A stretch of 11,637 bases of DNA from Chloroflexota bacterium (GTDB taxonomy: Bacteria > Chloroflexota > Dehalococcoidia > JAUQQI01), in NCBI GenBank assembly GCA_030549955.1, contig JAUQQI010000070.1:3984-15620 (forward strand), read 5' to 3'. The notes under the pieces were generated by a model, which worked only from the letters and a program-made list of their open reading frames with translations, did not search any database and was not told the DNA's origin. A program made the translations under genes and the position numbers. Of this stretch, positions 1,173 through 11,230 are shown piece by piece (positions within the stretch are counted from its first letter, which is position 1; every line of letters starts with the position of its first letter).

Positions 1173-2153
1173 TCACCTCCTGTGTGATGGCTTTGTCTCC
1201 GCCCCGCTGAGGCCCCGTAGCGCTTCGTAAACGGCCCGAGCCATGGCAGCCCAGACCCCGAGAACCAGGGTCGTGATGGTCAAGGGGCCCCAGTTGTTGG
1301 TCGCCCAGGACCAGGCCGACACTGCCCAGTCCGGCGCCCCGCGGGCCAGAGTAGCAGGCAGGCGGGGAGCCTTCTCGAACCCAACCGGTGCCGGGACGTA
1401 GGCGGCAGGGGGTGTACTCACCTGTCGGATGATTACGGTTTGCTGGCTCTCATCGTAGATGCCCATCCCTTCAAATCGCACCGTGAGTCTGTGCTCGGGC
1501 TGGCCGACGGTCGGCCGATATTCCCAGACGGCGAGCCCCCGGTCGTCAGTCTTAACCCGGCCGACCTCCATCAGGCCCTTTGTCCCGACAAACTCGGTCT
1601 CCAGATAAAACTTCACTTCGGCTTTGGCAACGGGTCCGCCGGATGGGTCCCGGAGCATGACGGTCAGGTCCACACCCTTACCGTCAGTGGTGTCGGCGGA
1701 CGGTGTGACCCTGAGCACCGTCGGGGTGCGGCTCGCCCCGCCGCCTCCGCCCGGCCTGACCTTCAGGACCCCGTTCTGCAGGTACTGGTGAAGCTCGCAG
1801 TCCAGGTCGCACTTGAAGGTAAACGTACCGGACCGGTCAGCGATGAAGCGGATGGTGGCCTCCCGGTGACCGGCGTTGATCTTCTCGGTCTCAAGCCTGT
1901 AGCCTTCGAGGACCATGATGTGCTCTTCCCCAGGATAAGCCTGATGGGCCCAGACGAAGGTGAGTTCCACGAGCTGGCCCTGCTCAACCTCGACGGTGGC
2001 CGGCTTGAAGCCGACGTCCGTCACCTCAACCCGGACCTTCACCGGCGAGTCGGCATGGGCGGCCTGTTTGGGTCCCGGAAGGCCGGGCCAGAACACGGCC
2101 AGGACGGTAACAAAGACGGCAAAAAGCCTCAAGCCGAACACTTTCCTAATCAT
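1173..2153 (-). CDS. Membrane-anchored cupredoxin with Ig-like domain
   Basis: This 326-residue protein has an N-terminal signal peptide (about 1-34) and then a cupredoxin domain (about 38-133) with a cytochrome c oxidase II/NosZ CuA-like pattern. His78 in EEHIMVLEGY and Cys115, Cys119 and His122 in FKCDLDCELHQYL are the candidate ligands. Canonical CuA reads C-x3-C-x3-H-x2-M; this one reads C-x3-C-x2-H and has Leu where Met is expected, so the centre may be a modified CuA or a mononuclear site. After a Gly-rich linker, residues about 143-243 resemble an Ig-like domain (VDLTVMLRDPSGGPVAKAEV, TDDRGLAVWEYRP). A hydrophobic stretch at about 292-308 would anchor the C-terminus in the membrane. 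The start overlaps the end of the NrfD-like gene by 8 bases, indicating translational coupling. Probable role: electron carrier on the outer face of the membrane, receiving electrons from the FeS/NrfD pair (inference). Confidence 0.82.
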   Translation of the reverse strand: MIRKVFGLRLFAVFVTVLAVFWPGLPGPKQAAHADSPVKVRVEVTDVGFKPATVEVEQGQLVELTFVWAHQAYPGEEHIMVLEGYRLETEKINAGHREATIRFIADRSGTFTFKCDLDCELHQYLQNGVLKVRPGGGGGASRTPTVLRVTPSADTTDGKGVDLTVMLRDPSGGPVAKAEVKFYLETEFVGTKGLMEVGRVKTDDRGLAVWEYRPTVGQPEHRLTVRFEGMGIYDESQQTVIIRQVSTPPAAYVPAPVGFEKAPRLPATLARGAPDWAVSAWSWATNNWGPLTITTLVLGVWAAMARAVYEALRGLSGAETKPSHRR

Positions 2154-3483
2154 CCTGACCCCCCATGAGGCTGGGCCCGCCGGTTTCGACCATCAGCTCA
2201 CGCTCTGGTTCGGTCTCCCAGAGGGAGACAATGGGAAAGAGCTTGGCAAAGATGGTTATGACCAGGGCGAAGCCGGCAAAGGACCCAACGGTCACCGCGA
2301 CCTCGGTCAGGGTTGGGATGTAAATGCCCCAGCCGTAGGCGGGCAAGAGCGGGGCCGCCAGGGACGGAACCACGATAATAAACCGTTTAAGCCACATGCC
2401 CACGTTCACCAGCAGGGACGCCCCGAACAGGACGGGAATCGTCCGGGTCCGGGGGTGAACGGCCAGCAGGACAGGCAGGACCTGTCCGGCCAGGAAGCCG
2501 GGCCAGACCAGCCGGCTGTAGCGGCCGAAGAAAACCTCCTCCAGCAGGTCCTTTTCTTCGCCGCCCAGCTTGTAGCCGGTGGTCAGGTACTCGGCGAAGG
2601 TAAAGTAGAAATAGACCATGCCGAACGCCGCCATCAGGTAACCCAGGTAGCGGAAGTGCTGCTCAGTCAAGTAGTCCTCCAGGTGGTAGAGGCGGCGGAT
2701 GATGAACATCAGGGTAATTAGCAGGGCTGTACCGGAGTAAAGGGCTCCGACGACAAAGTATGGGGCGAAGATGGTACTGTTCCAGCCGACCCGGAACGTC
2801 ATGCCGAAGATCCAGCTCACGACCGAGTGGGTCGCAACCCCGATGGGAATCACTACCAGCATCATGACCGTCCCGGCCCACTCAAGGCTTTGGCGCTGTT
2901 CGGACAGTCCCCGCCAGCCGAGGGCCAGCAGCGAGTAAAGCCGGCGGCGGAGGCCCGAAACCCGGCCCTTAAGCTCATCCCGGAGCACGGCCACATCCGG
3001 TATCAGGAAGAGATAAAGATAGAGGGCACTCGCAACCAGGTAAGTCGGGATGACCATCAGGTCCCAGAGCAGGGGCGATTCGAGCCGCCCGAACCGGACC
3101 AGGTTCAGGATACGGTCGGGGCGGCCCATATCGACAACAGGCATGAGGGCGGTCATCAGCAGGGCAGCCACCGTCGAAAGCTCGGCCAGGCGGGTCAGCG
3201 GCCGGCGCCATCCGGCGCCGGTAATCCTGAGGATCGCCGAGATAAACGTCCCCGCCATGCTCAGGCCGCTGAAGAAGACGAAGTTGCTGATATAGAGGCC
3301 CCAGACCACGGCGTCCCGCATGCCGGTGACAACGAGGCCCCGGTTGAGCTGGTTGAGATAGGCCAGCACGCCGGCCCCGAATACCACGAGAAGAAATGCC
3401 AGCCAGAGGTAGTAGACCGGTGTGCTGCGGATAACGGGTTGGAACACGAGTGCTTTAAGCCGCTCGTGTTCAGTCGGGCTCAC
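2146..3483 (-). CDS. NrfD/ActC-like polytopic quinol-interacting membrane protein
   Basis: About ten hydrophobic helices fill this 445-residue protein. Motifs include VWGLYISNFVFFSGLSMAG, MGRPDR, ATHSVVSWIFGM, GWNSTIFAPYFVVGA and MWLKRFIIVVPSL, which match the NrfD/PsrC/DsrP group and look closest to ActC of alternative complex III. Members exchange electrons with the quinone pool and pass them to a partner [4Fe-4S] subunit. I chose the GTG start at 3483, giving a GTGA overlap with the stop of the FeS gene and a GGAGG site 6 bases upstream. An in-frame ATG at 3531 would add 16 Pro/Arg-rich residues, but it has no clear ribosome site and would overlap the FeS gene by 52 bases. The gene lies directly between the FeS protein and the cupredoxin, so a three-part quinol-to-copper-protein chain is plausible. 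Which quinone and which direction cannot be read from the sequence. Confidence 0.9.
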   Translation of the reverse strand: MSPTEHERLKALVFQPVIRSTPVYYLWLAFLLVVFGAGVLAYLNQLNRGLVVTGMRDAVVWGLYISNFVFFSGLSMAGTFISAILRITGAGWRRPLTRLAELSTVAALLMTALMPVVDMGRPDRILNLVRFGRLESPLLWDLMVIPTYLVASALYLYLFLIPDVAVLRDELKGRVSGLRRRLYSLLALGWRGLSEQRQSLEWAGTVMMLVVIPIGVATHSVVSWIFGMTFRVGWNSTIFAPYFVVGALYSGTALLITLMFIIRRLYHLEDYLTEQHFRYLGYLMAAFGMVYFYFTFAEYLTTGYKLGGEEKDLLEEVFFGRYSRLVWPGFLAGQVLPVLLAVHPRTRTIPVLFGASLLVNVGMWLKRFIIVVPSLAAPLLPAYGWGIYIPTLTEVAVTVGSFAGFALVITIFAKLFPIVSLWETEPERELMVETGGPSLMGGQDD

Positions 3484-4364
3484 TGGTGGCCTCCGTGGGG
3501 GTTCTCCAGGGTCGCCCCGAGCTCCTGCCATGAACGCGGTTTCTTCGGGGTGCGGGTATCACGAACGTCCCGCCCGTATTCCTGGCCGTGGCCGGGGACG
3601 TACCAGACCCGAGGCCGGGTGCCCAGCTCCTCCCGGAGCCGGAAGGCGTGGTTCTCGGCCAGAAAGGTTGAGAGCTGGACCACCTCCTTGCCGTTAGTTG
3701 CCACATCCTCGGTGAGGTCGCCCAGATAGATCGCGAACATCGGGCAGGCCTGAGCGCAGGCGGGCAGTTTCCCATTCTGGGTTCGATGGGCGCAGAGCAT
3801 GCATTTTTCGACCGTGCCCTTCAGGTGAGGAACCGGGTATTCGGGCCGGTAGTCGGCGAAGAGGGCACCGGGCGGGTTTTCCGGCTGCCCCCAGTTGAAG
3901 ACCCGGGCCCCGTAGGGGCAGGCGGCCATGCAGAGGCGGCAGCCGATACACCGCCGGTGGTCAATCAGAACGACGCCCTCCTCATTGTGGTAGCTGGCCC
4001 CGACCGGACACACCCGGACGCAAGGGGCGTTTTCGCACTGCATGCACGGGCGGGGCAGGAAGTAGGTGTGGCCGGTCAGATCCTTCATCTCAAGGACCCG
4101 AATCCACTCCTGGCCCCTGGGCACGAAGTGCTCGACGTTGCAGGCCTCAACGCACTGGGGCGGCTTGCCAGTTGTCACGCACCCTTCGCACTTGCGGAGG
4201 TCAATGACCAGAACCCACTGCCGCCGGCGGGTTGACCGTGACCGGCTATCTGCTGAAGGCTGGGATAGGCCGCCTGCCCCGATGAGGGCAGGCGCGGCCA
4301 AGCCGGCCACCACCCCACCTGCTGCCTTGAACAACTGGCGACGGGAAACTTTATTTTGGCTCAT
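3480..4364 (-). CDS. Tat-exported four-cluster [4Fe-4S] electron-transfer subunit (NrfC/PsrB/ActB-like)
   Basis: This 294-residue protein begins with a twin-arginine signal (SRRQLFK at residues 7-13, then a hydrophobic stretch), so it should be exported folded with its clusters. Sixteen cysteines fall in four ferredoxin-type groups: C59/62/71/75, C107/110/115/119, C139/142/145/149 and C188/191/203/207. This is the four-cluster dicluster-repeat pattern of the DmsB/PsrB/NrfC family. Such subunits conduct electrons between an NrfD-type membrane partner, encoded immediately downstream, and a catalytic subunit, usually a molybdopterin enzyme. None is encoded upstream, because this is the first gene of its operon; one might lie beyond the left edge. 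The ATG at 4364 has GAGGA 9 bases upstream. The upstream 180 bp are shared with the divergent response regulator. The family call is firm; the physiological partner is not known. Confidence 0.93.
   Translation of the reverse strand: MSQNKVSRRQLFKAAGGVVAGLAAPALIGAGGLSQPSADSRSRSTRRRQWVLVIDLRKCEGCVTTGKPPQCVEACNVEHFVPRGQEWIRVLEMKDLTGHTYFLPRPCMQCENAPCVRVCPVGASYHNEEGVVLIDHRRCIGCRLCMAACPYGARVFNWGQPENPPGALFADYRPEYPVPHLKGTVEKCMLCAHRTQNGKLPACAQACPMFAIYLGDLTEDVATNGKEVVQLSTFLAENHAFRLREELGTRPRVWYVPGHGQEYGRDVRDTRTPKKPRSWQELGATLENPHGGHQ
3490..3494 (-). promoter_or_regulatory. Ribosome binding site fixing the GTG start of the NrfD-like gene
   Basis: GGAGG on the minus strand lies 6 bases before the GTG at 3483. 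It sits inside the end of the FeS gene and supports coupled translation from the GTGA overlap rather than the upstream ATG. Confidence 0.8.
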
Positions 4365-4544: not shown

Positions 4545-5213
4545 TTGGAGTTGATTCGCGTACTTGTGGCCGATGACCACCCCCTGTTCCGGGCGGGGGT
4601 CCGCGACCGCCTCACGGCGGTCGACCGCTGTATCCAGGTCGTTGGCGAAGCCGGGGACGGGGAGACGGCAGCGGAACTGGCTGAAAGGCTGCGCCCCCAT
4701 GTTGTGGTCATGGACATCGCCATGCCCCGGCTGAACGGCATCGAGGCTACCCGCCGCATAAAGGCCCGGTGCCCGGAAGTGGCGGTCCTGGTCCTGACGG
4801 TTTACGACTACGAGCAGTACGTTTATGCTCTCCTGGAAGCTGGGGCTGCCGGGTACCTGCTGAAAACCGTCGACGTGGCCGAACTGGCCCGGGCCATTCG
4901 CCAGGTTTACGAGGGCGAATCGGTCTTGAGCCCGCCGATCGCCCGCAAGGTTCTGGCACACTTCACCTCCCCGGGTCTTATGGCAAGCCGGGCGAAGGTC
5001 TGGGGCCACCTTTCCGAGCGGGAACAGGAGGTTCTCCAGCTGGCGGCCCGGGGCCTGAGCAACAAGGAGATCGCCCGGCAGCTGGGAGTCGGACTCCGAA
5101 CTGTCCACACCTATTTCCGGCGGGTCTTTGACAAGCTGGGGGTTGCTTCCCGGACCGAGGCCGTCGTTTACGCCCTGCGCCGGGGCTGGCTCCACCTGGA
5201 GGACCTGGGGTGA
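4545..5213 (+). CDS. NarL/LuxR-family response regulator
   Basis: This 222-residue transcription regulator has a receiver domain (about 3-120) with acidic pocket Asp10/Asp11, phospho-acceptor Asp57 in VVVMDIAMPRLNG, Thr85 and Lys107. A LuxR-type helix-turn-helix follows at about 155-213 (LSEREQEVLQLAARGLSNKE, then RTVHTYFRRVFDKLGV). It would be phosphorylated by the kinase encoded next and would bind DNA as a dimer. The TTG start is set by a strong GGAGG 6 bases upstream. The gene is divergent from the FeS/NrfD/cupredoxin operon, and the pair is flanked on the other side by the nos operon, so one or both respiratory operons are the likely targets. The family assignment is firm. The signal and the target genes are inference, although NarL relatives often control anaerobic respiration. 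Confidence 0.93.
   Translation: MELIRVLVADDHPLFRAGVRDRLTAVDRCIQVVGEAGDGETAAELAERLRPHVVVMDIAMPRLNGIEATRRIKARCPEVAVLVLTVYDYEQYVYALLEAGAAGYLLKTVDVAELARAIRQVYEGESVLSPPIARKVLAHFTSPGLMASRAKVWGHLSEREQEVLQLAARGLSNKEIARQLGVGLRTVHTYFRRVFDKLGVASRTEAVVYALRRGWLHLEDLG
5198..5202 (+). promoter_or_regulatory. Ribosome binding site for the kinase GTG start
   Basis: GGAGG lies 7 bases before the GTG at 5210, inside the last codons of the response regulator. It supports the GTGA stop/start overlap. Confidence 0.75.
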
Positions 5214-6796
5214 CGATAACCTTGACAGAACAGGTTGGCAGCTTAAAGTCTTTGACTGAACGCGGCCGGGCCTTTGCCCGGCTCTTTCGCCAGAGGCTCC
5301 GGGACCGGCGCTTCTGGGTCGTCCAGGCGCTGGTTCTCTTTATCACGGGCGGCCACCACCTCGTCGAATTCGGTGGATTTTTCGGCCAGCACGAGGCCCT
5401 GGCCTTTGTCCCGGTCTCCTTTTACCTGATCCCGGTCCTGTACGCCGCCCTCCACTTCGGGATGGGGGGCGCTTTGCCGACGGCCCTCTGGAGCGCCGTG
5501 CTGGCCGTGCCCAATGCGTTCCTGTGGCACGGTCCCACCGAACGGCTGGGCGAGTTCTTTCAGATAACCATCACCGTCATCGTGGCCATCCTCGTGGCCC
5601 AGCGGGTTGAAGGCGAGGCCCGAGCCAGGCAGAATGCCGAGCAGATGAGCCGCCGGCTGATGCTTCTGAACGCGACGGCCGCGGCCGCCAGCCGCCGGCT
5701 TGAGCCCGCCGGGATCGTCGCCGACGTCCTCGGGGTCTTCCTGCGGGAGAGCCGGACCGACGCCGTCTGGCTGGCCTCGGCCGCCGACAATCCCGACATT
5801 CCGGCCCTCACGGTCCGGGGTCCGGAGGGCGAGCTTCCCGCCGAGCTTGAAGCCATCATCCGGCAGGTGGCTCAGGATGGGCGGCCGCGCCTTATTCAGG
5901 AGTGGACCGATGGCTGGCCCGGGAATCACCTCAGAAGTGCGGCTGTGGTTCCCGTCCGGGTGGGCGACCGGATCATTGGGGTACTGGGCATCTTCAGCCG
6001 CTGCTGGCCGCTTTCGGCCGACGACGTGGGTCTACTCGAAGCGGTAGCCCGCCAGCTGACGGTCGCCCTGGATAACTCCCGCCACTACCAGGAGGCACGG
6101 AAGGCCCTTGACGAACTGATGGTTGCCCAGAAGAACCTGCGGACCTACCTGCGGATGGCTGTCCAGGCCCAGGAGGAAGAGCGCAAGCGGCTGGCCCGGG
6201 AGCTCCACGACGATACGATCCAGTCCCTGGTTGTGATGAAAGCCACCCTCGATAAGGTCATGGCATCGAAGGGTCTGCCGGCCGCCGTCCGGAATGAGCT
6301 TGACGCCTTGAGAGGATTAATACAAGGGGCCATTCGGGATGTGCGAAGGTTTTGCCAGGACCTCCGTCCGTCGCTGTTGGATGACCTGGGTCTGGTCCAG
6401 GCCGTGGACTGGTGCCTGGCCGACCTGGAGCGCCGCACCGGCATCGGTACCCGACTTTGGGTGGAGGGTGAGCCCCGCCGGCTCGGTTCTGAGGCTGAGG
6501 TAGCCGTCTACCGGATCATCCAGGAAGCCCTCCGCAATGTCGAAAAGCACGCCCGGGCAACCCTGGTCGAAGTTGCCATCGGCTTCAGCCCCGACTGCTT
6601 GCGGGTAAAGGTTGCCGACAACGGCTGCGGCTTCGTGCCAGCAGAGGTGCTCGGCGGTCAGGCGAACGGCCAGGGTCTCGGTTTGCTGGGGATGCAGGAA
6701 CGGGCCCGGCTGGTGGGTGGGAGTCTCCACGTCGAAAGTGAGCCCAGCCAGGGAACCACGGTAACCCTGAGCCTGCCGGTCGGTCCGGCCTGCTAG
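5210..6796 (+). CDS. NarX/DegS-type membrane sensor histidine kinase with GAF domain
   Basis: This 528-residue kinase has about four membrane helices near its N-terminus (roughly 35-48, 63-82, 86-103, 114-131) with only short loops, so sensing is probably within or near the membrane. A GAF-like domain spans about 152-289 (AAVVPVRVGDRIIGVLGIFS). The HisKA_3 dimerisation domain carries phospho-acceptor His333 in ARELHDDTIQSL. The HATPase_c domain shows the N box IIQEALRNVEKHA (Asn443), the G1 box DNGCGF (470-475) and the G2 region GQGLGLLGM. This kinase class pairs with NarL-type regulators, as here. The GTG start at 5210 overlaps the regulator stop as GTGA with GGAGG 7 bases upstream, so the two are co-translated. 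No haem ligand pair, iron-sulfur cysteine cluster or periplasmic NarX P-box is recognisable, so the ligand (quinone state, NO, N2O or other) is unknown. Confidence 0.92.
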   Translation: MTITLTEQVGSLKSLTERGRAFARLFRQRLRDRRFWVVQALVLFITGGHHLVEFGGFFGQHEALAFVPVSFYLIPVLYAALHFGMGGALPTALWSAVLAVPNAFLWHGPTERLGEFFQITITVIVAILVAQRVEGEARARQNAEQMSRRLMLLNATAAAASRRLEPAGIVADVLGVFLRESRTDAVWLASAADNPDIPALTVRGPEGELPAELEAIIRQVAQDGRPRLIQEWTDGWPGNHLRSAAVVPVRVGDRIIGVLGIFSRCWPLSADDVGLLEAVARQLTVALDNSRHYQEARKALDELMVAQKNLRTYLRMAVQAQEEERKRLARELHDDTIQSLVVMKATLDKVMASKGLPAAVRNELDALRGLIQGAIRDVRRFCQDLRPSLLDDLGLVQAVDWCLADLERRTGIGTRLWVEGEPRRLGSEAEVAVYRIIQEALRNVEKHARATLVEVAIGFSPDCLRVKVADNGCGFVPAEVLGGQANGQGLGLLGMQERARLVGGSLHVESEPSQGTTVTLSLPVGPAC

Positions 6797-6804
6797 GGGG
6801 GCCT

Positions 6805-7263
6805 TCAGCCGTGCCGCGGGGGCGTCAGGTTACGGGTCTCGAGTTCGGCCCAGGTTAGAACCTCGCCCCCGAGGTCCGCCTGACGGGCCCTGGCCCGGGT
6901 GCTGTCGGCGAAGGCGGCCAGGCCCCAACCCATCGGACTCCGGACCTGTGGGCTCAAAAGAAACCAGGCGCCTTCGGCCCGGACCCAACTTCGACTCTCG
7001 TAATCATGGACCCAGACGGCAGCCCAGGCCGGCCGGCGCTTCTGCCGGTAAACCAGCAGACACCCGATATCATCAAAGAGCAGGGGATCGGCCCCCGCAA
7101 CCGACGCCGCGGCGGCAAACCGGTCGTCGCCGATAATCATTCCGCATTCGGCACAGACATCCCGGCCGTAGCGGATGTCCGGGGGCTCGGGCTCCGTCCG
7201 GTGGGCGCAGGCCCCGGCCAGGGCGGCCAGAGCCAGAAGGCCGAGAAACTCCCGGCGGTTCAC
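6805..7263 (-). CDS. nosL: NosL copper-binding lipoprotein
   Basis: From the GTG at 7263 this is a 152-residue protein. It starts NRREFLGLLALAALAGAC, a signal with twin arginines and a lipobox-like end, so Cys19 is the likely lipidated residue and export may be by Tat. The NosL hallmark Cys37-x2-Cys40-Gly-Met42 (CAECGMIIGD) follows, with conserved-looking LLFDDIGCLLVY and WVHDY. NosL binds Cu(I) and delivers it to the N2O reductase maturation system. The GTG overlaps the nosY stop as GTGA, with GGGAGG 7 bases upstream; an in-frame upstream start would add 19 residues and overlap nosY more deeply, so I reject it. It is the last nos gene here. Its end is separated by 8 bases from the convergent kinase gene, with no clear terminator hairpin between. 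Length and motif agree with the family. Confidence 0.92.
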   Translation of the reverse strand: MNRREFLGLLALAALAGACAHRTEPEPPDIRYGRDVCAECGMIIGDDRFAAAASVAGADPLLFDDIGCLLVYRQKRRPAWAAVWVHDYESRSWVRAEGAWFLLSPQVRSPMGWGLAAFADSTRARARQADLGGEVLTWAELETRNLTPPRHG

Positions 7264-8093
7264 GGGCGAACCTCCCTTTGGAGGCCCAGGTAGCCGGCGA
7301 CCAGGGCGGCCGGAATCCACAGGGCGAGGCTTGCGTGGAAGACCAGGGGCAGGTAGGGACCGAGAAGGTCGGCGGCATAGAGGCCAGCCGGCCCGAGCAG
7401 TTCGGTCGACCCGCTGAGCAGATACAGGGCGGCAACCCGGTAGCTTTCGAGGGGGTTTATAAATGCCGCCACCAGCAGCCAGCCGGGCGAAAGCCGCAGA
7501 ACGATGGCCGTCCCCATCAGGCCGAGACTACCGACCAGACCGAGAACAAGCCAGGCAGCGACCGCCAGGCTCAGGGCCGTGCCGGACCGGCGGACAGCAG
7601 CCGAGATGGCCACTCCTATAGCAAGGTTTGCCCAGCCAAGGAGGACCGTAAGTTCGACGAGCCCCAGGAAGGTCTGGGGGTCCCGGTAGGATCCGGCGGC
7701 CCCGAGGGCGAGTCCAGCCGCCCCGAAACTCACCCCCACCGCGGCCGCGAGCGCCAGCCCCAGGCCAACAACCTTTCCCAGGTAGAAATCGAGAAGATCG
7801 ACGGGCTGGGCAAGCCAGAATTCGAGGCTTCCCCGCTCCCGTTCCCCGGCGAGGGACTGGGCCCCGAGGGTCAGGCCCATCAGGGGCACGAGCAGCATCA
7901 TCAGGTTCACCATGCTGGCGGCGGTTCGCCCGAAGCCGGCCACCTGGCCATAGCCGGCCCCGGCCAGGGCCAGGAAGGCAAGGCCCAGGCTCAGAACCGC
8001 CAGGCTGGCGCTGTAGGCCACAAACCAGCGGTTCCGCAGGGCATCCCGGAGCTCCTTGCCGGCCAGAATCCGAGCGCTCCTAGCCCACCCCAT
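7260..8093 (-). CDS. nosY: NosY ABC transporter membrane subunit
   Basis: This is a 277-residue integral membrane protein with about six hydrophobic helices and an ABC-2/NosY-like cytoplasmic loop (GERERGSLEFWLAQPVDL, about residues 83-100) that would contact the ATPase. With NosD and NosF it forms the ABC complex needed to build the copper centres of NosZ. Two in-frame ATGs lie 6 bases apart. I chose 8093 because the GGAGA site ends directly before the ATG at 8099, leaving no spacing, but is 6 bases from 8093. The gene overlaps the end of the nosD-nosF fusion by 14 bases and overlaps nosL at its own end, so translation is coupled. The family call rests on the order nosB-nosDF-nosY-nosL together with the loop and helices. 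The helix count is by eye. Confidence 0.9.
   Translation of the reverse strand: MGWARSARILAGKELRDALRNRWFVAYSASLAVLSLGLAFLALAGAGYGQVAGFGRTAASMVNLMMLLVPLMGLTLGAQSLAGERERGSLEFWLAQPVDLLDFYLGKVVGLGLALAAAVGVSFGAAGLALGAAGSYRDPQTFLGLVELTVLLGWANLAIGVAISAAVRRSGTALSLAVAAWLVLGLVGSLGLMGTAIVLRLSPGWLLVAAFINPLESYRVAALYLLSGSTELLGPAGLYAADLLGPYLPLVFHASLALWIPAALVAGYLGLQREVRP
7271..7276 (-). promoter_or_regulatory. Ribosome binding site fixing the GTG start of nosL
   Basis: GGGAGG on the minus strand lies 7 bases before the GTG at 7263, within the last codons of nosY. It sets the shorter NosL start directly ahead of the lipoprotein signal. Confidence 0.8.
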
Positions 8094-10386
8094 CTTCATT
8101 CTCCAGGGTAAAATCGTGCACCTTCACACCGGCCCGGCCCAGGATGAAGAAGGGCTCGGCTTTTCGGCCGGCATCGACCGTAACCCGCAGGCTCCGGCCG
8201 TTGCGATACACTTCAAACCCGTGAGTCTGAAGCAGGCTGGCGGCCTGACCAACCAGGCCTTCATCCAGGAGCAGGCGGACCGTCAGCCGGGCCGGCGCCC
8301 CCGGGGACATGGTGAGCTCGCCGACCTTGCGGCCCCCTTCGAGCCGGATGACACGGCTGGCCAGCTGACGGACCTCCTCTTCCCGGTGGGAAGTAAAGAC
8401 GATGGTCCGGCCCTGGTCCCGCAGGGCCTTCAGGCGGCCGAGGAGGTCGGCCCGACTCTCCGGGTCGAGGTTCGCCGTGGGCTCGTCGAGGAGGAGGATG
8501 GGCGGGTCGCCGATTAAGGCCAGGGCCAGGATGAGCTTCTGCTGCATGCCGCCCGAGAGGGCCCGCAGCGGCAGCTGCCCGACGCCGTCGAGGGCGAAGG
8601 CGGCCAGCCGCTCCCGGGCATATCCGACCGGTTCGCCCCGGAGGGCGGCAATGACCTCCACAAGCTCCCCGACCGACATATCGAGAGCGGGCACTTGCTG
8701 GGGAACGTAGCCGATAAGCCGGCGGAGGCGGGCACCGTCGCGGCGGGGCGAATATCCGCCGACCCGGATTTCGCCCTGGTAACCGGTCAATCCAAGCAGG
8801 CACCGCAGGACGGTAGTCTTGCCCGCCCCGTTCGGCCCCCAGAGGGCAACCGCCTCCCCCACCCGAACGGTAAACGATACGTCCTGCAACACGGGGCGGT
8901 CACCATAGGCCTTGGTAAGGCCGCCAACGCAGACGAGGGGCTCCGGGCCCTGGGCCGGTGACGGGGCGGCCGGCGCCGTCCTGGTGCCCGGGCCGGTCCG
9001 GCGCCCCAGCCAGGGCAGGCTGAGGATAACCATGCCGGTCGCCAGCAACAGGCCAGCCAGCGGGTGGTAGCGCGTCGGGTCGGGTTTAAGGCCGGGTACC
9101 GGCGGCGGGCCTGGCGGGGCGACCAGAGGTGCCGGGTCGACGAGACGAGGCTGAGGCCGGAAGACGGGCACGGCCCGGGCGGCCAGCTCCAGGGCCGCGA
9201 AGGCCGGGCTGAACCGGAAGAATCCGAGCAGGGGGTAGCGGTCGGCAAGGGCCCCGAAGACCGGTTCGTTCCGGTACGGGATATCCCCGACGCCGTCGCC
9301 GTCGGCGTCGTAGCCGACGTAGTCGGCCCAGAAGTTGCCCCGTCCCCCATCGACCCAGCGAATATCCCCCAGAACGCCCCCACCCTGGACCCCGACCTGC
9401 TCCAGGTTTTCCAGGATGGTGTTCCCGGCGATGACGTTGCGGCGGGTCGCCGCCGTGAAGAGCAGGCCGGTATCGTTATACGCCACCCAGTTTCCGGTAA
9501 ACCGGTTTTCCAGTTCGGGCGAGAGGGGCGAGTTGTCGATGTAAATGCCGACCCGGTTATTGTAAAAAAGGTTGCGCTCGGCGACGACCCCGTCCGTCTC
9601 CTTGAGGGCCAGGCCGTAGCCGGACGGCCCCCGGTTGCCCCGGAGGACGTTGCCCTGGACCGTCTGGCGGGCCCCGTACATGAGATAGATTCCGACGGAG
9701 TTTTCGCGGATGTCGTTGCCTTCAATAAGGCTGTTCTGGCTGTACATGAAGTGGAGGCCGTAGCGGCCGCCGCTTATCCGGTTGCCGCTGACCAGGGTGT
9801 TGTCGGAGTACCAGATGAGGGCATCCCGGGTCTTCTCCAGCCGGTTTCCAATGACGCGGGCGCCGGGGCTGTACCACACCTTCAGGCCATCACCCCGAAG
9901 AGGCTCGGGAAGGTCCTTGCCCACAATGGTATTGCCCTGGATAAGGCCGTCGGGGGCGTTCTGAAAATAGATACCGAAGAGGCAGTCGACAACCTCGTTG
10001 CCGACGATGGCAGCGCCAGGGGCGCTGACGACAACCCCGCTGTCCTCGTGGTCGTGGCTCGAGCCGCTGCCCCGGATAACAAAACCTTCAAGCCGAACCC
10101 CGGGGGCGGTGACGGCGACCACCGAACCCCGTCCATGGCCGTCAATAATTGGGCGGTCCCGGCCCAGCAGGGTGACGGGCCGATCAATGACCACCGGACC
10201 GGAGTAGGCTCCGCCCAGGACTTCGATGATAGCCCCAGCCGGCGCCGCCGCCACCGCGGCTTGCAGGTCAGTTACCTCGCAGGTCGGGCAGACCGTGATA
10301 GCAGGCTGGGTCCCGGCCGGCCCTGCCGGCATAAGGGAGGCGAGCACAGCGGCAATGGCCAGCAAGGCGACCCAGCCCGCCCGCAT
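8080..10386 (-). CDS. nosDF: NosD-NosF fusion: periplasmic beta-helix, one membrane helix, ABC ATPase
   Basis: A single 768-codon frame joins two proteins that are normally separate. Residues 1-27 are a signal peptide. Residues about 30-400 are NosD: right-handed beta-helix repeats with recurring GN-x-I/V and VGIY/YGL turns, ending in the NosD-typical NFWADYVGYDADGDGVGDIP. A Pro-rich stretch leads to one hydrophobic helix (about 441-460) followed by GRR, so the chain would cross inward. After a short Ala/Pro linker, residues about 482-690 are a NosF ABC ATPase with Walker A GPNGAGKT (517-524), a Q-loop in YVPQQ, signature LSGGM (610-614), Walker B ILLLDEP (630-636) and His667. A C-terminal accessory domain fills 697-768. 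I found no internal start codon with a ribosome site at the NosF boundary. The ATG overlaps the nosB stop by one base, with AAAAGGAGA 6 bases upstream. NosD and NosF assignments are firm; the fusion is read directly from the frame. Confidence 0.93.
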   Translation of the reverse strand: MRAGWVALLAIAAVLASLMPAGPAGTQPAITVCPTCEVTDLQAAVAAAPAGAIIEVLGGAYSGPVVIDRPVTLLGRDRPIIDGHGRGSVVAVTAPGVRLEGFVIRGSGSSHDHEDSGVVVSAPGAAIVGNEVVDCLFGIYFQNAPDGLIQGNTIVGKDLPEPLRGDGLKVWYSPGARVIGNRLEKTRDALIWYSDNTLVSGNRISGGRYGLHFMYSQNSLIEGNDIRENSVGIYLMYGARQTVQGNVLRGNRGPSGYGLALKETDGVVAERNLFYNNRVGIYIDNSPLSPELENRFTGNWVAYNDTGLLFTAATRRNVIAGNTILENLEQVGVQGGGVLGDIRWVDGGRGNFWADYVGYDADGDGVGDIPYRNEPVFGALADRYPLLGFFRFSPAFAALELAARAVPVFRPQPRLVDPAPLVAPPGPPPVPGLKPDPTRYHPLAGLLLATGMVILSLPWLGRRTGPGTRTAPAAPSPAQGPEPLVCVGGLTKAYGDRPVLQDVSFTVRVGEAVALWGPNGAGKTTVLRCLLGLTGYQGEIRVGGYSPRRDGARLRRLIGYVPQQVPALDMSVGELVEVIAALRGEPVGYARERLAAFALDGVGQLPLRALSGGMQQKLILALALIGDPPILLLDEPTANLDPESRADLLGRLKALRDQGRTIVFTSHREEEVRQLASRVIRLEGGRKVGELTMSPGAPARLTVRLLLDEGLVGQAASLLQTHGFEVYRNGRSLRVTVDAGRKAEPFFILGRAGVKVHDFTLENEDGVG
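8100..8104 (-). promoter_or_regulatory. Ribosome binding site deciding the nosY start
   Basis: GGAGA on the minus strand directly abuts the ATG at 8099 and is 6 bases from the ATG at 8093. The second ATG is therefore favoured. The site lies inside the end of the nosDF gene. Confidence 0.7.
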
Positions 10387-11039
10387 CAGAAGTCTCCTTT
10401 TGACTTACCGGTTTTGTGGGCTACTCGCCAGCGCAGGACGAGTCCGGCCGCCGCCAGGAGGGCGGCCGCAAACGCCAGGTAAAGCCCGGGGCCGAAATCG
10501 GCAACCACCACGAACTGGCCGACCCGGCCGACCCCGAGGACCGGCGGGGTGAAGGGCTTAATGGCCGAGCTTAAGGGCGCTGTTGGGTCCAGGTGGTTAC
10601 CGTAGTACCACAGCCAGTAGGCCAGGTCGCCGAGGAAGATAACCGGGAATGCAACAATGGCCAGGCCGAGCATTGCCGTCCAGCGCCGGCGGATAAGGGC
10701 GGCCAGGACCGCCACAAGGGTCAGAGCCACAACCCCGTAGGGGGCAAGGGCTCGCTCGAGTCTGGCCGCCTCCTCCAACGGCATCATGCCGATGTAATGG
10801 TTACGGCCGTTGACTTCGGCAACATCGCCGACAAGCCCCCGCGGCCCCAGGTAAATGGCGACCCGCAGTCCCCCCGGATACTGGGGGGCCCGCAGGGTCA
10901 TCTCCCAGTAGGGCAGTAGCAGGGATACAAGCAAGGCAACAGCAGCCAGGACGAACAGCAGCCGGTCATTAAGCCAGCGGCTGAGGCCCGATGCTTGTCG
11001 CTCGGGTACGGCGATTACCGGTGCGGGGGACGTTTTCAT
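10386..11039 (-). CDS. nosB: NosB-like membrane protein of clade II nos clusters
   Basis: This 217-residue protein has about four membrane helices (roughly 27-45, 98-116, 121-146, 183-203). A short outside loop after helix 1 carries GLVGDVAEVN and NHYIGMM (80-86); I associate the NHYIGM signature with the membrane protein encoded between nosZ and nosD in atypical nosZ clusters. Its role is not established, but it is a marker of clade II operons and presumably assists NosZ maturation or electron supply. The ATG at 11039 has AAGGAGA about 9 bases upstream and lies 14 bases after the nosZ stop. The end overlaps the nosDF start by one base (TGATG). The Met and His of the NHYIGM motif could bind copper, which is inference. 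The identification rests on position, topology and this motif rather than a family search. Confidence 0.72.
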   Translation of the reverse strand: MKTSPAPVIAVPERQASGLSRWLNDRLLFVLAAVALLVSLLLPYWEMTLRAPQYPGGLRVAIYLGPRGLVGDVAEVNGRNHYIGMMPLEEAARLERALAPYGVVALTLVAVLAALIRRRWTAMLGLAIVAFPVIFLGDLAYWLWYYGNHLDPTAPLSSAIKPFTPPVLGVGRVGQFVVVADFGPGLYLAFAAALLAAAGLVLRWRVAHKTGKSKGDF

Positions 11040-11053
11040 GGGTCAGCTTCTCC

Positions 11054-11190
11054 TTAAGCCGGTTTGACCAGGAAGTAGCCCATCATCTCAAGGTGCAAAG
11101 CCGAGCAGAACTCGGTGCAGTAGAACGGGAACGTGCCCGGCATATCGGCCACAAACCGGAAGGTCTGGGTCTCGCCCGTCGACAGCGTCG
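11054..11190 (-). CDS. nosZ: Nitrous oxide reductase NosZ, C-terminal CuA fragment
   Basis: Only about the last 45 residues are recognisable, from LSTGETQTF through VADMPGTFPFYC to YFLVKPA and a TAA stop at 11054. The CuA ligand motif is complete: Cys codons at 11117-11119 and 11105-11107, His at 11093-11095 and Met at 11084-11086, giving C-x3-C-x3-H-x2-M (CTEFCSALHLEM). NosZ reduces N2O to N2; its CuA domain receives electrons and passes them to the CuZ cluster in the propeller domain. The FCSALHLEMMGY wording is what I associate with clade II enzymes. Upstream of about 11190 the frame stays open but no longer looks like NosZ, and the base composition changes sharply. The gene is therefore cut here, most likely by an assembly join. 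The full gene should be about 600 residues or more. Confidence 0.85.
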
Positions 11191-11230
11191 TCCGGGTCCG
11201 TACCGGCGACAAGGACGAGGCAGCGATCTG
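11186..11230. other. Probable chimeric junction between nosZ and unrelated high-GC DNA
   Basis: On the low side of this interval the minus strand reads NosZ; on the high side a different minus-strand frame reads a HAD phosphatase. GC is about 52% in 11041-11100 but about 82% in 11281-11340 and 90% in 11521-11580, counted by eye. No repeat or mobile-element end is visible at the join. An assembly chimera at a contig end is the simplest explanation. Confidence 0.7.

Follow-up and report, generated by a model that had tools for sequence, protein, structure and literature searches.

The window analysed here, a stretch of 11 637 nucleotides from a Chloroflexota bacterium (contig JAUQQI010000070.1), carries on its minus strand a single open reading frame (8080..10386) that joins the beta-helix protein NosD and the ATPase NosF into one chain of 768 residues, nosDF. 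The fusion is a widespread and recurrent Chloroflexota variant of the known NosDFY system. We think it probable that the gene belongs to a copper-loading ATP-binding cassette (ABC) system of the NosDFY type that serves nitrous oxide reductase, and that it unites a tail-anchored NosD with the adjacent nosF. Nitrous oxide reductase removes a strong greenhouse gas, and a passage of PMC7558416 states that NosD and NosFY are required to form its CuZ centre.

Structure of the fused chain

The 768-codon frame is unbroken, with no internal stop, when the minus strand is read. The preliminary description, made from the letters of the DNA, had given this frame and its coordinates but no strand; the plus strand over 8080-10386 is interrupted by stops. 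All features of nosDF and its operon given below lie on the minus strand. The chain begins with a signal-peptide-like N-terminus (residues 1 to about 28; 10303..10386), and the AlphaFold2 model has a helix at residues 2-17, where a signal peptide is expected. It is followed by the NosD beta-helix domain (residues 41-422; 9121..10266), which scores 399.4 bits with TIGR04247 (curated cut-off 300) and, at residues 148-358, 154.8 bits with PF05048 (cut-off 23.6). The right-handed beta-helix is seen both in a match to PF13229 (86.9 bits) and in the strands of the model, and this part of the chain matches Pseudomonas stutzeri NosD (7o0y_A) with E = 3.7e-35.

A single predicted transmembrane helix (residues 441-460; 9007..9066) has a Kyte-Doolittle mean of 1.87 over 19 residues and is directly followed by two arginines (RR). 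The Pro/Ala-rich linker after it (residues 461-484; 8935..9006), which is taken as cytoplasmic, contains no in-frame ATG, GTG or TTG, and the predicted local distance difference test score (pLDDT) is below 50 at residues 461-479. The remainder is the NosF ABC ATPase with a C-terminal extension (residues 485-768; 8083..8934), with 90.1 bits for PF00005 at residues 500-638 (cut-off 25). The AlphaFold2 model (mean pLDDT 88.5, predicted template-modelling score 0.60) shows the same order: beta-helix, one helix at 441-460, disorder at 461-479, and then the ATPase with its extension. The first Foldseek match of the model is the NosF chain 7osf_B, from a NosDFYL entry. However, phmmer places human ABCA proteins above P. 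stutzeri NosF, which weighs against assigning the ATPase to NosF.

The nucleotide-binding motifs of the NosF part are all present. In an alignment of 67 relatives, the invariant columns are G517, N519, G520, G522-T525, Q563, L610-G613, L631, L633, D634, E635 and H667. Apart from H667, these fall in Walker A (GPNGAGKTT, residues 517-525; 8812..8838; seven of nine residues invariant), the Q-loop (Q563), the ABC signature (LSGG, residues 610-613; 8548..8559; invariant throughout) and Walker B (LLLDE, residues 631-635; 8482..8496; all but one residue invariant). Thus, the domain order put forward in the preliminary description, a NosD beta-helix, one helix with arginines on its C-terminal side, a linker and an ATPase with the full set of ABC motifs, agrees with the profile matches, the model and the alignment.

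Occurrence of the fusion

A protein search for chains of this kind scored 8000 candidates and found 1159 relatives; the homologue counts that follow are for the best 120 of these 1159. Both the NosD and NosF domains are present in 120/120. A strongly hydrophobic stretch lies between the domains in 111 of them, or in 117 at a looser limit. In 113/120, lysine and arginine are more frequent after the helix than before it, so that the placing of NosD outside and NosF inside, as the preliminary description had it, is likely. Walker A is found in 120/120, the signature in 119/120 and Walker B, as DEP, in 115/120. The closest listed relatives are 80-81% identical over 97-100% of the chain, and the fused relatives include proteins named by their source as Thermomicrobium sp. 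4228-Ro and Thermoflexus sp.

Genomes were searched with the NosD model in overlapping sets of 400 from the same phylum, 294 from the same class, and 158 and 298 from two further classes of that phylum. The 119 NosD loci classified in Chloroflexota comprise 56 fused, 59 split with nosF near, three cut by a contig end and one with NosD only; the weak matches L108-L111 were excluded from the classification. A singular case is not what these numbers support, the fusion being common in Chloroflexota. Two of the calls are doubtful. L280, counted as fused, holds ambiguous bases, and L160, counted as split, looks like a frameshifted fusion. Both were dropped from the second tree, the counts of changes, the linker lengths and the start test described below, and L280 also from the gene-order count. 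The frame of L280 would be a four-part NosB-NosD-NosF-NosY chain, but it was rejected as evidence because the ambiguous bases lie within the frame and also near the joins. A triple chain, NosB-NosD-NosF, is seen in P0107 (987 residues, none ambiguous), where the NosD signal region is internal.

No fusion was found among 68 classified loci outside Chloroflexota (61 split, seven with NosD alone in the stretch examined), drawn from Actinomycetota, Bacillota, Campylobacterota, Gammaproteobacteria, Gemmatimonadota, Halobacteria and Pseudomonadota, where further matches were left unclassified. A pattern scan of genome contigs with generic ABC motifs returned mostly ATPase-only loci, and 12 of 80 were used, only as an entry to named groups; its organism titles supply the names used here for the groups outside Chloroflexota.

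The preliminary description knew of no NosD-helix-NosF fusion in the literature, and we likewise found no description of a NosD-NosF fusion in the open-licence literature searched, in the passages available and with subscription journals not covered. For Thermoflexus, one such passage names nosZDYL and does not name nosF; for a Sphaerobacter metagenome-assembled genome, another names nosZ and nosD, again with no nosF. The unlisted nosF in these two cases fits an unnoticed fusion, without showing one, and such a fusion may explain the omission.

A CxxC motif (CPTC, residues 33-36; 10279-10290) is located near the N-terminus of the NosD part and is possibly a copper site. It occurs in the class-of-G347 lineage, in family f64 and in two of the four fused genes of the window's own class, in fused and split genes alike. 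It was considered as a mark of fusion and dropped, as its distribution tracks lineage instead.

Origin of the membrane helix and history of the fusion

Where does the membrane helix come from? Helices were called with a Kyte-Doolittle window at a mean of 1.3 or more, which is not a trained predictor. With this measure, a C-terminal helix is present in 57 of the 59 split NosDs of Chloroflexota, with a similar linker and basic tail, and in the NosDs of Actinomycetota (5/5) and Bacillota (5/5). It was not found in those of Pseudomonadota (0/20, one reaching 1.23), Gemmatimonadota (0/16), Halobacteria (0/17), Campylobacterota (0/2) or Gammaproteobacteria (0/3). The helix at 441-460 is thus common to many split NosDs of Gram-positive groups. 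In P. stutzeri, by contrast, only about 12 residues of NosD remain past the match, which is not enough for a helix to span the membrane. According to a passage of PMC3475470, each of the five NosDs of Bacillus azotoformans has a putative transmembrane helix at its C-terminus, like the NosD part of nosDF, although the nosF genes are separate there. We infer that cells without an outer membrane retain NosD through such a tail anchor.

In the split loci, nosD and nosF are close together, and some apparently overlap by four bases. The tail anchor would put the C-terminus of NosD in the cytoplasm beside the start of nosF, so that a fusion would require no more than losing the gene border. These sequence comparisons suggest that the fusion arose by reading through from a tail-anchored NosD into the adjacent nosF.

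Two quick trees were made from NosD plus NosF, leaving out L147, L153, L157 and L165, whose NosF part is cut or broken. The first has 117 rows; for the second, L280, L160 and the long branch L142 were dropped and the tree was rebuilt. Twenty-two branches were left open. The fused or split label changes at least 10 times on the first tree and 12 times on the second, and on the second a clade that unites every fused row is rejected (p = 8e-5). One fusion followed by 11 splits costs the same 12 changes as mixed histories, whereas gains alone need 16; gain and loss of the fusion are not told apart by the tree. Repeated switching between fused and split forms within one phylum, some of them with a surviving NosF start, provides matched natural comparisons.

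The gene of the window groups with six fused genes of family f68 (100 in the Shimodaira-Hasegawa-like approximate likelihood ratio test), and a tree test rejects a grouping with the 22 split genes from the window's own class. This placement suggests that the locus was horizontally transferred or that the contig is misbinned. The genome to which the contig is assigned is 82% complete, with a contamination of 4.24%.

Possible role of the tether

The preliminary description proposed that the fusion could couple ATP hydrolysis to copper handling outside the cell in a different way. This finds little support, since the tether is unconserved, its linker is variable and disordered in the model, and fused and split forms have changed into each other repeatedly. 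In 67 aligned sequences, no column at residues 424-492 is conserved at 90%, while both domains have many invariant columns. Across 53 fused genes, the linker from helix to NosF is between 18 and 71 residues long. The lack of any conserved column together with the variable length argues for a passive tether, and the data fit a helix and linker that would act as such, built on the existing tail anchor. There are exceptions that weigh against a membrane tether in every fused chain. The fused frame of L286 (130-2202) has no helix at all, with a join of only 22 residues; that of L186 has a weak helix (Kyte-Doolittle 1.13); and the mean of the helix is below 1.3 in three of the 120 homologues.

Stoichiometry and alternative readings

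In the PDB, 16 entries contain 16 chains of the NosD sequence and 15 entries contain 30 chains of NosF, i.e., 1:2. The nosDF gene should give NosD and NosF at 1:1 if the chain is uncut and an internal start is unused. The conflict of stoichiometry raised in the preliminary description is therefore supported at the level of chain counts against the gene. Of the ways around it that the preliminary description named, both cleavage of the chain and displacement of one NosD may apply; an internal nosF start would be a third. Since the fusion should force two NosDs per complex, it can show whether the 1:2 asymmetry is a requirement or a chance feature of one organism.

A separate NosF could restore the 1:2 ratio. 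We looked for a second ATPase in 36 of the 56 fused genomes and in 15 split ones, 51 in all, scoring up to 48 candidates per genome. The best NosF match was at the nos locus in 51/51. In the 36 fused genomes, the nos-locus NosF scores 306-415 bits and the next ABC protein no more than 259 (374.5 and 223.9 in the genome of the window), and no separate NosF scoring like that of the nos locus was found. Some points weigh against this result. In four genomes of f68, a second ABC protein has 249-259 bits, level with the NosF of a split genome, G378 (258.2). The score limit is not sharp, and the search covers 36 of 56 fused genomes, the window's own being the 82% complete one.

Free NosF might instead come from within the fused gene, by initiation at the old nosF start, so that NosDF and NosF together on a NosY dimer would restore 1:2:2. 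In the start test on 55 fused genes, with positions in codons from the start of the NosF domain, an in-frame ATG is kept at NosF position -3..0 in 20 of them, so that the 1:1 ratio need not hold across the family. A Shine-Dalgarno-like match of at least four bases precedes 14 of 23 ATGs at the NosF start, compared with 65 of 415 ATGs internal to the domains (Fisher p = 2.8e-6, with related rows counted apart); in split genes, it is found in 32 of 46. However, the window has no ATG, GTG or TTG from -31 to +14. Of its nearest candidates, the ATG at -32 falls within the helix and the GTG at +15 within the NosF domain. The GTG does have a five-base Shine-Dalgarno-like match, but initiation at this codon would leave out the domain's first strands and is implausible. 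Furthermore, the six nearest relatives, all of f68 (L085, L089, L090, L091, L093 and L150), have no ATG from -25 to +2, although five have a GTG or TTG there. To judge from these codons, nosF may be started internally in some relatives but hardly in the window. As a general explanation of the fusion, two products are unlikely.

It is likewise improbable, in our estimate, that the linker is cut after synthesis of the full chain, so that the fusion would secure only equal synthesis and co-insertion. The disorder of the linker in the model, its length of 18-71 residues and the interconversion of fused and split forms would suit such a cut, but no cleavage motif is conserved in the 67 sequences at 424-492. 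Cleavage would restore separate subunits and is invisible in the sequence, a point that weighs against reading the 1:1 ratio directly from the gene.

That the fusion arose from a sequencing or assembly error, or is a decayed gene, is very unlikely: the contig end in nosZ looks chimeric and the single rows L280 and L160 elsewhere are doubtful, but every one of the best 120 homologues is fused, some of them from named genomes, and the catalytic residues are invariant across 67 relatives. The closeness of the nearest relatives over the whole chain makes a stop or frameshift at 8940-9070 unlikely. Judged by these homologues, the fusion is real and no assembly artefact.

Proposed mechanism and comparison with known systems

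In the NosDFY-type mechanism that we propose, the N-terminus would be exported, with the beta-helix outside and the single helix spanning the membrane N-out/C-in, a topology drawn from the residues around the helix. The floppy linker would lead to the ATPase, which would pair with a second copy beneath NosY, a separate permease. As in the known complex, NosY would pass the movement driven by ATP on to NosD. Tethering NosD and fixing NosD:NosF at 1:1 would be the main effects of the extra helix, and the NosY dimer would carry two NosD arms. The composition (NosDF)2(NosY)2, the copper loading and the role of the tether are inferred. The tie to copper delivery to NosZ is through the operon, with the nosZ end upstream in 39 of the 40 fused loci that have a flank long enough. 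A further, tentative suggestion is that (NosDF)2(NosY)2 is a symmetric, two-armed loader serving both halves of the NosZ dimer, and that some Anaerolineae-type relatives tune the number of arms with NosF from an internal start.

The domains of nosDF are homologous to the NosD beta-helix and the NosF ATPase of P. stutzeri NosDFY (7o0y and related entries), and nosY and nosL are in the same operon, as for the NosDFY system. However, NosD and NosF of P. stutzeri are separate chains, at 1:2 by PDB chain counts, and here they share one frame. MacB likewise unites an outside domain and an ATPase in a single chain, and that chain holds the permease helices; nosDF differs in having one helix and a separate NosY. 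Rows 29, 32 and 49 of the Foldseek result match the ATPase part of MacB. In importers of the GlnPQ and OpuA type, the binding domain is covalently tied to the permease, with two or more per complex, whereas nosDF ties the outside domain to the ATPase. Other joined nos accessory proteins are the NosB-NosL and NosB-NosC2 fusions; as they are described in passages of PMC9697520 and PMC11409646, neither links an outside domain to an ATPase, unlike nosDF.

The nos operon and neighbouring genes

The order on the minus strand is nosZ (end only), nosB, nosDF, nosY and nosL. The nosY permease gene (7260..8099; PF12679, 94.6 bits, cut-off 27.2) overlaps the end of nosDF by 20 bases, and the gene for the copper chaperone NosL is located at 6805..7320 (PF05573, 51 bits, cut-off 24). 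Upstream, a gene for a NosB-type polytopic membrane protein (10386..11039) has a stop that shares one base with the nosDF start. This protein has no match in Pfam or NCBIfam. It contains NHYIGM, most of the LNHYIGM that a passage of PMC9697520 quotes as the NosB motif. The C-terminal end of nosZ, about the last 160 bases, lies at 11054..11215, with the rest of nosZ absent from the contig; it matches the end of a gene in L249, which is a NosZ by TIGR04246 (927.5 bits). The last 420 or so bases of the contig (11216-11637), upstream of the nosZ end, are in a different reading frame, so that the contig end is probably chimeric.

Gene order was counted in 49 fused loci with flanking sequence, without the split-locus stretches L303-L321 and without L263 and L324. 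Where the flank is long enough, NosY is within 1 kb downstream in 47/47 and a NosB-like gene is upstream in 43/43. NosL is downstream in 39/43.

Near the nos genes, 1173-4364 encodes a DsrO-like Fe-S protein, an NrfD/DsrP-like membrane protein and a cupredoxin-domain protein, which might supply electrons to NosZ. Genes for a NarL-type response regulator and a histidine kinase lie on the plus strand at 4545-6796, convergent with nosL, and are possible regulators of the nos cluster.

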